NCBI GenBank assembly: GCA_017937925.1
Contig: JAGBCQ010000020.1
Coordinates: 1 to 64,000, forward strand
Origin: Paraprevotella sp.
GTDB lineage: Bacteria; Bacteroidota; Bacteroidia; Bacteroidales; Bacteroidaceae
Length of the DNA: 64,000 nt
Direction of reading: 5' to 3'
Under the pieces are notes generated by a model, which searched no databases, was not told the origin of the DNA, and saw only the letters and a list, made by a program, of their open reading frames with translations. The position numbers and the translations under genes were made by a program. This document shows positions 979 to 3,144 of the stretch, one piece after another; position 1 is the stretch's first letter; every line of letters begins with the position of its first letter.

Positions 979-1560
979 TTAGAAAGCATATCCAAGGCGT
1001 ATTAAATGATTCACAGCTCCCGCCGGTCCATTATCAAACAACTCTGCAAATCCGCGCTTAAATGTATAATCAATATTCCAACGTTTATACCACACGCCAA
1101 AACCAACCAAAATACCACCATCACAACGTTTGTAGTTATCCTTATCCCCTATTTTTATATCCCCATCTTCTGCATCAAACTTGCCTGCCATATCCACTCC
1201 GAAGAAACCTCCGATTCGTCCGTCTATCGCAATATTACTTGTTAACGCATATTTAATTCCTGCAGTAAGCGGAATGTTAAGATTATGAGCTCGGAATTTC
1301 GCTTCACTGAAATTTACATCATACCCACGTGTGCCAAACATCACACCGGTATTCCAATAAACATTTCCAATAATCGGGTGATTAAAGTCAAGTCCTACAT
1401 TATAACTTGGCAACATTGTTATACCCCTCGTATTATCTCCCTTAAAGCTATTTGAGGCAAAACCTCCACGAAGAATCAACTGACCGCCCCAAATTTGCGC
1501 ATTCACTGTAGCTGCACCTAATATAAAAGCCCCTGCTACCATCAATAATAATTTCTTCAT
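979..1560 (-). CDS. Small outer-membrane beta-barrel protein (left paralog)
   Basis: 193 residues with a clear signal peptide (MKKLLLMVAGAFILGAATVNA) followed by alternating aromatic and glycine-rich strands and a terminal phenylalanine (IRLGYAF), the usual ending of an outer-membrane barrel. The porin-family call is by architecture; no ligand can be assigned. It is clearly paralogous to the protein at 2429-3082: both share FGTRGY/FGSRGY, a KxxAHN stretch, DxAGK, EDGDI/EEGDI, GVW[YF], RGF and the last seven residues. It points away from the segment with inverted repeats at 1696-1882. As drawn, its upstream DNA has a TACATTTG (1613-1620) but no TTTG at the right distance, so it may be poorly transcribed in this orientation. 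A strong terminator follows it. Confidence 0.85.
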   Translation of the reverse strand: MKKLLLMVAGAFILGAATVNAQIWGGQLILRGGFASNSFKGDNTRGITMLPSYNVGLDFNHPIIGNVYWNTGVMFGTRGYDVNFSEAKFRAHNLNIPLTAGIKYALTSNIAIDGRIGGFFGVDMAGKFDAEDGDIKIGDKDNYKRCDGGILVGFGVWYKRWNIDYTFKRGFAELFDNGPAGAVNHLIRLGYAF

Positions 1561-1695
1561 AACTTAAGATTTTAAATATATAACATCCGAATGCTTCTTA
1601 TCAGCATCCGCACAAATGTAAGAATAATCCCGATTACCTGTACACTAAGAAAATACAAAAGAAACTGAACTTTGTTAAAAGTCTATTATAAATGA

Positions 1696-1715
1696 CTCTA
1701 AGTAAGAGAGCAACT
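1696..1715 (+). repeat. Left inverted repeat of candidate invertible segment
   Basis: A 20-base arm, perfectly complementary to 1863-1882; identity stops sharply on both sides. The arm itself contains CTCT, five bases, AGAG, a small palindrome that could be a recombinase half-site pair. Confidence 0.9.
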
Positions 1716-1823
1716 CAGTTCTTTAAATCTTAAGATTCATGAAATTAGTCACTGGCGTGTTTTGCTTTTTGTTTGAAAAGTTTAGAACTTTTAACCAGAA
1801 AGTTAAATTTAACACTCAAAATA

Positions 1824-1854
1824 TTTGCGATTATCAAGATATTATCTACCTTTG
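1824..1854 (+). promoter_or_regulatory. Consensus promoter inside the invertible segment, reading right
   Basis: TTTG at 1824-1827, 19 bases, TACCTTTG at 1847-1854: a perfect Bacteroidetes promoter. The predicted transcript start is near 1860, about 65 bases before the ATG at 1926. It is expected to drive 1926-2402 and 2429-3082. Confidence 0.85.
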
Positions 1855-1862
1855 TAACCATT

Positions 1863-1882
1863 AGTTGCTCTCTTACTTAGAG
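1863..1882 (-). repeat. Right inverted repeat of candidate invertible segment
   Basis: Perfect reverse complement of 1696-1715. It begins about nine bases after the end of the promoter's TACCTTTG element, so the transcript should start at or just before this arm and carry it in its 5' leader. Confidence 0.9.
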
Positions 1883-1925: not shown

Positions 1926-2402
1926 ATGAATATCAGAAAGAAATTATTGATTGCCGGACTTATGAGTATTGTCGGCATCTGTCAAATGATGGCACAGAAA
2001 ACTGAATACAGAGAGTCTCAAGCTCGTCTAGCAGAGCCCGTAATGGGAGTGTATATCAAGCCTTTGATTGCAGAATTAGAAATCAACAAGACTGTTGGAA
2101 AGATAAAGGATCAATGGGAGTTCTCAAATAAAGAAGTCAATGCATTATCCGGAGAAGTCCCCAATTTAAAAGCTCGTGCTTTGTTCATGAGTACAGAAAA
2201 ACATAATGCAGACGTCATTGTTGCTGCATCATTTGATATTGTTTCAAAAGAAGACAATAGCGGTTATTACGTAACAGTTATTGGATATCCCGCAAAATAC
2301 GTTAGATGGAGAACTGCCACTGCCGAAGACAACGCATGGATTCACAATGAAAAGATAACTCCTATCAGATCACAAGAAGCAACTCAAGCAATTACTAAAT
2401 AA
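1926..2402 (+). CDS. Secreted protein of unknown function
   Basis: 158 residues with an N-terminal signal sequence (about residues 1-23, ending MMAQ). The mature part contains an EPVMGVYIKPLIAELEI stretch, a short helix with KARALFMSTEKHNADVIVAASFDI, and a strand region ending GYYVTVIGYPAKYVRWRTAT. I do not recognise a named domain, though the look is that of conserved secreted Bacteroidales proteins. It is the first gene behind the promoter in the candidate invertible segment and is followed after 26 bases by a barrel gene on the same strand, so the two probably form an operon; a periplasmic or surface partner of that barrel is a guess from position only. Confidence 0.75.
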   Translation: MNIRKKLLIAGLMSIVGICQMMAQKTEYRESQARLAEPVMGVYIKPLIAELEINKTVGKIKDQWEFSNKEVNALSGEVPNLKARALFMSTEKHNADVIVAASFDIVSKEDNSGYYVTVIGYPAKYVRWRTATAEDNAWIHNEKITPIRSQEATQAITK

Positions 2403-2428: not shown

Positions 2429-3082
2429 ATGAAAAGATTTTTATCATTTGCATGCGCAGCACTATGCTGTATGATTATGAATGCGCAATTAGTTACATCT
2501 CGTAGCGTTGCCTCAGTTTCAACACCGAAAGAATCCAAAACTACTTGGATGTTTAAAGTGGGTATGGCTACCAATAATTTCGTAGGAGAAAATTGGGGCG
2601 ACTCTGACACCAAGATTGGATACAACTTTGGTTTTGAGTTCAATCGCACAATGGGAAAGAAAGGAGCTTATTGGGGCATGGATTTCTTGTTTGGAAGCCG
2701 TGGTTACAAGTACAGCGAAGGAGAGTATGACTTCAAGCACAAAGCACACAATTTCCAATGGTCACCATTTACTTTTGGATGGAAAGTTGATGTTGCTAAC
2801 AAAATCACCATTGATCCACATCTCGGTGTATTCTTAGCAATTGATTATGCAGGTAAGCAAGTTGCTGAATATGATGGAGAAGAAGGTGACATCAGCATTT
2901 GGGATGTAGAAGATTACATTCCTGTAGATTTGGGTATGAAAATCGGTGTTGGGGTTTGGTTCAACAAGAAGTTCAACCTTGACTTGACTTACCAAAGAGG
3001 TTTTGTAAATGCGTTTGATTTTGGTGAAGACTATAGTTCAAAAACCAACAACTTCTTAATCCGTTTAGGTTACGCATTCTAA
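2429..3082 (+). CDS. Small outer-membrane beta-barrel protein (right paralog)
   Basis: 217 residues: signal peptide ending MNAQ (about residue 20), a short linker, then amphipathic strands and a C-terminal IRLGYAF typical of barrel proteins handled by the Bam machinery. It is a paralog of 979-1560; the match covers most of the mature protein, with the right copy having an extra N-terminal linker of roughly 20 residues. Second gene of the unit behind the candidate invertible promoter, followed by a strong terminator. No substrate can be inferred. Confidence 0.85.
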   Translation: MKRFLSFACAALCCMIMNAQLVTSRSVASVSTPKESKTTWMFKVGMATNNFVGENWGDSDTKIGYNFGFEFNRTMGKKGAYWGMDFLFGSRGYKYSEGEYDFKHKAHNFQWSPFTFGWKVDVANKITIDPHLGVFLAIDYAGKQVAEYDGEEGDISIWDVEDYIPVDLGMKIGVGVWFNKKFNLDLTYQRGFVNAFDFGEDYSSKTNNFLIRLGYAF

Positions 3083-3105
3083 TAACAAACAATACCTATA
3101 CAAAG

Positions 3106-3144
3106 CAAGAGGTTAGCCCATTGGGTTAGCCTCTTGTCTTTTTT
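3106..3144 (+). terminator. Rho-independent terminator
   Basis: A 15-bp stem with two G-U pairs (3106-3120 with 3122-3136) followed by a T-rich tail (3137-3144), 24 bases after the stop codon of the right barrel gene. Confidence 0.85.

Follow-up and report, generated by a model that had tools for sequence, protein, structure and literature searches.

Results

Organization of the locus

We analyzed a 64,000-bp stretch of DNA (hereafter, the window) that makes up positions 1–64000 of contig C17 in a Paraprevotella genome (G000) of 2.06 Mb; the genome is 78.6% complete, with about a fifth missing. Outer-membrane barrel genes lie on both sides of a short segment bounded by inverted repeats, in the following arrangement.

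979–1560, minus strand: outer-membrane barrel of 193 aa (PF13568), paralogue of 2429–3082
1613–1620, minus strand: fixed −7 box TACATTTG of the left barrel gene, 60 bp before the ATG
1696–1715, no strand: left inverted-repeat arm, with the core CTCT-AAGTA-AGAG at 1696–1708
1716–1862, no strand: putatively invertible spacer between the arms, without an ORF of at least 80 aa
1824–1854, plus strand: Bacteroidota-type promoter TTTG-N19-TACCTTTG, reading right as assembled
1863–1882, no strand: right inverted-repeat arm, with the core CTCT-TACTT-AGAG at 1870–1882
1926–2402, plus strand: protein of 158 aa with a hydrophobic stretch at its N-terminus and no Pfam match at E 0.01
2429–3082, plus strand: outer-membrane barrel of 217 aa (PF13568)
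3105–3137, plus strand: terminator-like hairpin 3′ of the right operon (a consensus scan found 2 in the region, with 1.3 expected)

An initial annotation of this DNA had described a perfect 20-bp inverted repeat around a single TTTG-19-base-TACCTTTG promoter. We confirmed both parts: the arms are complementary at 20 of 20 positions and enclose 147 bases, giving a segment of 187 bp overall, and our mapping agrees that a flip would carry the promoter to 1724–1754 on the minus strand. Inverted repeats around a short promoter-bearing segment are the layout of Bacteroidales invertible promoters. No coding sequence of the kind that a shufflon or coding inversion would carry was found in the segment, the 147-bp spacer having no ORF of that minimum length.

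A chance origin of the arms was rejected given their rarity and the outcome of resampling. Thirty first-order Markov resamplings of the 64-kb window contained no perfect inverted repeat of either 20 bp or 14 bp (spacing 50–300 bp), compared with one in the real window, and at up to three mismatches the arm occurs in the window at just its two places (chance expectation 0.01). The TTTG-N19-TACCTTTG pattern alone is not rare, with 3 occurrences in the window against 0.47 expected and 2 of 100 shuffles reaching 3, and a sigma-70 scan was uninformative (8 found, 7.3 expected). Two more inverted repeats (22 nt, 91%; 19 nt, 95%), accompanied by TGAAACATG-like repeats, lie at 569–636 and 666–740, upstream of the 3′ end of the left barrel gene.

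A family of related sites in the genome and the genus

In the whole genome, the arm at up to three mismatches gave seven matches, compared with one for a backward control. The initial annotation had pointed to a search for further arm copies, and pairs of the same site type do occur at three more loci: with a looser core, four paired elements were found, on contigs C12, C17 (the window), C18 and C23, those on C18 and C23 having perfect arms of just 13 bp. The C12 element (L008:5801–6402) has as neighbours a lipoprotein-like ORF and a repeat protein of 1414 aa; the promoter reads away from both and is off as assembled. At the C18 element (L178:1821–2006) a −7 box is directed into a 580-aa ORF. 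One more dyad of this site type, at C6:210646–210672, stands alone: a T-run follows it, and the pattern used gave no partner arm.

Across the genus, GCTCTCTTANNNAGAG was present in 10 of 18 genomes (58 rows, compared with 2 rows for the backward control). The half-sites of 29 elements, 168–322 bp in length, flank a 5-bp centre and have the consensus RTYKMTCTCT, which defines the site type RTYKMTCTCT-N5-AGAGAKMRAY; CTCT and AGAG are invariant in these profiles by construction. The profile draws on 29 of 41 element rows, the 12 excluded being eight beside recombinase genes, two with other flanks (L117 and L118) and two duplicates at N gaps. A strict whole-element pattern, which fixes spacing and core and so leaves room for looser relatives elsewhere, found eight loci across the GTDB 220 collection, all titled Paraprevotella, and the exact whole-element pattern had no matches in the viral contigs searched.

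The central variable triplet was identical within all 18 opposite-strand row pairs lying 100–340 bp apart (17 elements, one arm being duplicated at an N gap). It varies from locus to locus, with 10 triplet kinds among the row pairs and a probability of 0.10 that random rows match. Identity within a pair combined with difference between loci is as expected of the overlap region of a tyrosine recombinase.

When the 29 profile rows were taken together with L117 and L118, 22 of the 31 elements carried both promoter boxes, six the −7 box only and three neither by the pattern used. Mechanically called ORFs of at least 90 aa, some of which are perhaps not real genes, face outward on both sides of 11 of the 31. 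The ORFs beside L028, L175 and L177 resemble capsule regulators of the UpxY/NusG type.

Orientation of orthologous elements in related species

We compared five orthologous element pairs between P. clara YIT 11840 (G001) and P. xylaniphila YIT 11841 (G017), with one genome representing each species. Three pairs lie in opposite orientation between conserved flanks (L016/L023, 260 inverted and 28 same; L026/L019, 257 and 18; L175/L177, 198 and 26), and the other two share an orientation (L064/L068, 169 same and 16 inverted; L069/L065, 186 and 20). Homologous elements are therefore found in both orientations, as in Bacteroidales invertible promoters, indicating that such sites do invert in nature.

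The same three loci bear on the idea that the arms do not recombine at all and serve only to bind a regulator or form a hairpin. The partial dyad symmetry of each single arm and the solo dyad on C6 could fit such a role, but inversion of same-site elements between species makes a hairpin or attenuator function unlikely. Unless the orientation differences had some other origin, they contradict arms that never recombine, which is the least credible of the explanations we weighed.

The window locus has its orthologue in one of the same-orientation pairs, L064/L068, whose left barrels are 72% and 62% identical to that of the window and whose arms measure 23 and 21 bp. The promoter of this pair is directed to the left barrel in both species, whereas the window promoter is directed right. 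The window spacer gave no alignment with the P. clara and P. xylaniphila spacers in either orientation (20 and 17, with a 95% shuffle level of 23–24), and because the inner sequences do not align, the orientation contrast at this locus rests on the promoter motif; the window locus itself is known in one orientation.

Indirect signs of mixed orientation come from assembly breaks at these sites. All three site matches in G010 are no more than 76 bp away from a contig end, and two of them are probably halves of one element because a single centre and the same flanking dyad are common to both. One of three site matches in G013 and one of six in the fragmented G004 are likewise near a contig end, and in two P. 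xylaniphila elements an N gap separates two copies of one arm. We consider it very probable that the 187-base segment can be turned around in this bacterium.

A candidate recombinase encoded elsewhere in the genome

The initial annotation had called for a recombinase acting in trans, of either tyrosine or serine type. The tyrosine search yielded a candidate among five PF00589 proteins in G000, whereas PF00239 (serine recombinase) had no match in this 78.6% complete genome, and a serine invertase of the Mpi type was accordingly set aside.

C6:148544–149749, unlinked to the window: candidate tyrosine recombinase of 402 aa (PF13102/PF00589)

The candidate has the catalytic residues expected of a master tyrosine invertase (R250, K276, R350, H373 and Y382), all conserved in a 10-row alignment. 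Two of the other PF00589 proteins, on C5, are presumably housekeeping enzymes of the XerC and XerD kind, judged from length and neighbours, and the tree places the remaining two outside the family of interest; the candidate alone belongs to the family associated with CTCT-N5-AGAG elements. A search by sequence for relatives of the recombinase with solved structures gave none at E 0.001.

Might the window copy be a locked relic that has lost the capacity to invert? A single orientation has been seen here, and the left site deviates from the site-family consensus in its outer half, AAATGACTCT. Set against this degeneration are arms still identical at 20 of 20 positions, a matching centre and an intact candidate recombinase, and we regard a relic as very unlikely.

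We searched the whole genus with the candidate protein. Orthologues (at least 57% identity, a cut chosen after seeing the hits) were present in nine other genomes, and the ten together form one clade (100/100). In the seven genomes read (G001, G004, G006, G010, G012, G013 and G017) the clade member is divergent from its neighbouring gene, which we take to be MATE-like, and both P. clara and P. xylaniphila have, close by, a look-alike of the gene that precedes the candidate in G000; these recurring surroundings mark the recombinase as chromosomal and not as a passenger gene. In 9 of the 18 genomes the site and the orthologue occur together and in 7 both are absent, with one genome having the site alone (G011) and one the orthologue alone (G003, 70% complete) (Fisher p 0.0019, for genomes that are related and with the post hoc 57% cut).

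Before the genus-wide search, 40 regions with recombinase genes had been retrieved to supplement those in the data set. No CTCT-N5-AGAG element was seen beside clade members (the 3′ side is off the contig in G004). Among the nearest loci outside the genus (the best 10 from 301 genomes, 52–58% identity), seven have a CTCT-N5-AGAG element immediately downstream of the recombinase gene, one has no element and two have other repeats. Within the genus, eight recombinase paralogues have such an element at or just past their 3′ end and others have unrelated repeats. On the recombinase tree the CTCT label requires 9 changes, compared with a shuffled mean of 12.2 (21 of 500 shuffles as low), which is modest clustering, and absence of the adjacent element maps to one branch. 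Adjacency in relatives and the tree together tie this recombinase family to the CTCT core, and the pattern suggests a single loss of the local element in the Paraprevotella clade, which would act in trans. The observations bearing on action of the candidate at many loci are this adjacency in relatives and the 9/1/1/7 co-occurrence, and a single unlinked enzyme may operate the genus set of switches. Other recombinases of the genus (L135, L138, L146, L147 and L149) are adjoined by inverted repeats of unrelated sequence with arms of 14–29 bp, which are probably local switches with their own sites.

The element could also be real and be inverted by a different recombinase, for instance one encoded in the missing part of the genome, and with roughly one fifth of the sequence lacking, such an enzyme may exist. 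Genus genomes hold several members of this family, some beside CTCT-N5-AGAG elements, and G011 has its one site match without an orthologue while G003 has an orthologue without a site. We nevertheless judge this improbable, given that no other PF00589 protein of G000 belongs to the family with such elements, that no PF00239 protein was found there, and that, of the 18 genomes, 9 have both clade and site and 7 have neither.

Genes probably under the control of the element

The barrels encoded at 979–1560 and 2429–3082 are both of the OMP_b-brl_2 family and are 39–42% identical. The initial annotation had proposed that the inversion toggles between these two surface barrels and had stated that the left gene lacks a full consensus promoter. 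The flanks do encode related barrels, and the left gene indeed has no −33 box in the window; that box alone is absent, however, and the statement is misleading in that the gene keeps its own conserved −7 box. A TAnnTTTG box lies 55–72 bp before the left-barrel start in 9 of 11 sequences, including the window, and six of these nine have no element; the remaining two have TACATTCG instead. The left barrel is thus probably not dependent on the element. On conservation of the arms, part of the refuting condition set by the initial annotation, the outcome is mixed: they are kept beside the left barrel in P. clara and P. xylaniphila, but none were found upstream of the other 8 of 10 left-barrel orthologues, in eight further genomes, which counts against an invertible promoter.

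On the right side, TAnnTTTG is missing from the 43-bp interval that separates the right arm from position 1926, for which reason the right operon should depend on the element; a near match to the −7 box (7 of 8 positions), TACATTTT, in the same interval counts against this reading. The right-hand genes of P. clara and P. xylaniphila differ from those of the window; they encode a protein of 328 aa and a barrel with hardly any similarity to the one found here. G006 has an orthologue of the right operon of the window at another place, behind its own 20-bp repeat and with other flanks (L117).

A strict two-way toggle, with the promoter driving either the left or the right paralogous barrel and the other one silent, would account for the related barrels encoded by two outward-facing neighbours, for the leftward promoter of P. 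clara and P. xylaniphila, which is directed to the left barrel, and for the missing −33 match. It sits poorly with the TAnnTTTG box that left-gene orthologues retain where there is no element, and we find it only partly supported and doubtful. Because the left barrel has this conserved box, we prefer an on/off reading of the right operon, and the element is best read as an on/off switch of that operon which may serve as an extra promoter for the left gene in its other state.

A FopS-like RNA block beside one element

One orthologous element is found in six genomes (L026, L019, L018, L039, L047 and L052, in G001, G017, G004, G012, G013 and G006, respectively). It is adjoined by a conserved block of about 70 nt that ends in a covarying hairpin and a T-run, with both sides changed in 5 of 34 predicted pairs. 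A 30-base part of the block is exact in 8 of the 18 genus genomes and is absent from G000. In an Rfam search with five loci, FopS (RF04319) matched over its full length at 28.6–33.8 bits, below the gathering score of 56. The invertible promoter is directed to the block in two of the six genomes (G001 and G006) and away from it in four, and the block is possibly a phase-variable small RNA. The available part of the FopS paper does not mention phase variation of this kind (PMC11697453). The same 30-mer adjoins an element and its adjacent recombinase gene at G015:C22:1586–3080 (L174 and L218), where Rfam gave no FopS match for either locus.

Discussion

A probable phase-variable promoter switch operated in trans

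We consider it likely that window positions 1696–1882 are a phase-variable invertible promoter that is turned by a tyrosine recombinase acting in trans and that drives the right operon as assembled. The initial annotation's reading of an invertible promoter served by an unlinked enzyme is well supported, by homologous elements, by three orthologous loci in opposite orientation and by a candidate recombinase elsewhere in the genome. In the mechanism that we propose, a tyrosine recombinase encoded elsewhere, for which C6:148544–149749 is the candidate, would bind both dyad sites, and strand exchange in the central 5–7 bp would turn the 187-bp segment round. In the assembled orientation the promoter would drive the operon of the 158-aa protein and the 217-aa barrel. 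In the inverted orientation that operon would have no evident consensus promoter, and the promoter would read into the 193-aa barrel gene, which also has its fixed −7 box.

More tentatively, we propose a genus-wide network in which one orphan tyrosine invertase arose once from a cis-linked local invertase by loss of the adjacent element, and in which the 5–7 bp centre would act as a locus address that guards against cross-recombination. The switched genes would be paralogous outer-membrane barrels, capsule-type regulators and a FopS-like small RNA, such that one enzyme would phase-vary both surface transcription and post-transcriptional control.

Comparison with known systems

The kind of switch is known from Bacteroides; in the openly licensed literature we found neither this member, its site and its likely enzyme nor any paper on a Paraprevotella inverton set. 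The main text of one survey of Bacteroidota invertons does not name Paraprevotella (PMC11892184). The inverton groups described there, from PhaseFinder-type analysis, resemble the elements of this study in having short inverted repeats around promoters and in being grouped by repeat motif; the likeness is one of description, and a published repeat motif may match ours. A further report tabulates resistance genes that lie behind invertible promoters and includes P. xylaniphila (PMC8748976). Those promoters come from the same genus, but, in the part of the report available, their classes lie within integrative elements, whereas the elements here would control other genes.

Close parallels are the master invertases of B. 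fragilis, which the available text of PMC4747536 gives as Mpi (13 regions), Tsr0667 (three SusC/SusD clusters and nine other regions) and Tsr19/BF2766. Like the Mpi regulon, the proposed set would pair one enzyme with many promoter inversions that affect surface architecture; unlike the enzyme found in this study, Mpi is a serine recombinase, a type of which none was found in this genome (PMC4747536; PMC12632263). Tsr19/BF2766 and Tsr0667 are each described as one tyrosine recombinase that inverts promoters at local and distant outer-membrane-protein loci, as our candidate may do, and they share the TAnnTTTG −7 box (PMC4747536). Tsr0667 differs, by a comparison of descriptions rather than of protein or repeat sequence, in making shufflon-type inversions, and Tsr19 in adjoining one of its targets (PMC4747536), whereas the Paraprevotella clade has no visible adjacent CTCT-N5-AGAG element. 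Our findings would carry promoter inversion in trans, a mechanism known in Bacteroides fragilis, over to Paraprevotella. Both the site and the enzyme are predicted here, and since the enzyme is the product of a single gene, the prediction is testable at many loci at once. The findings also suggest a route by which local switches could turn global, and the targets of the same enzyme may include a small RNA.
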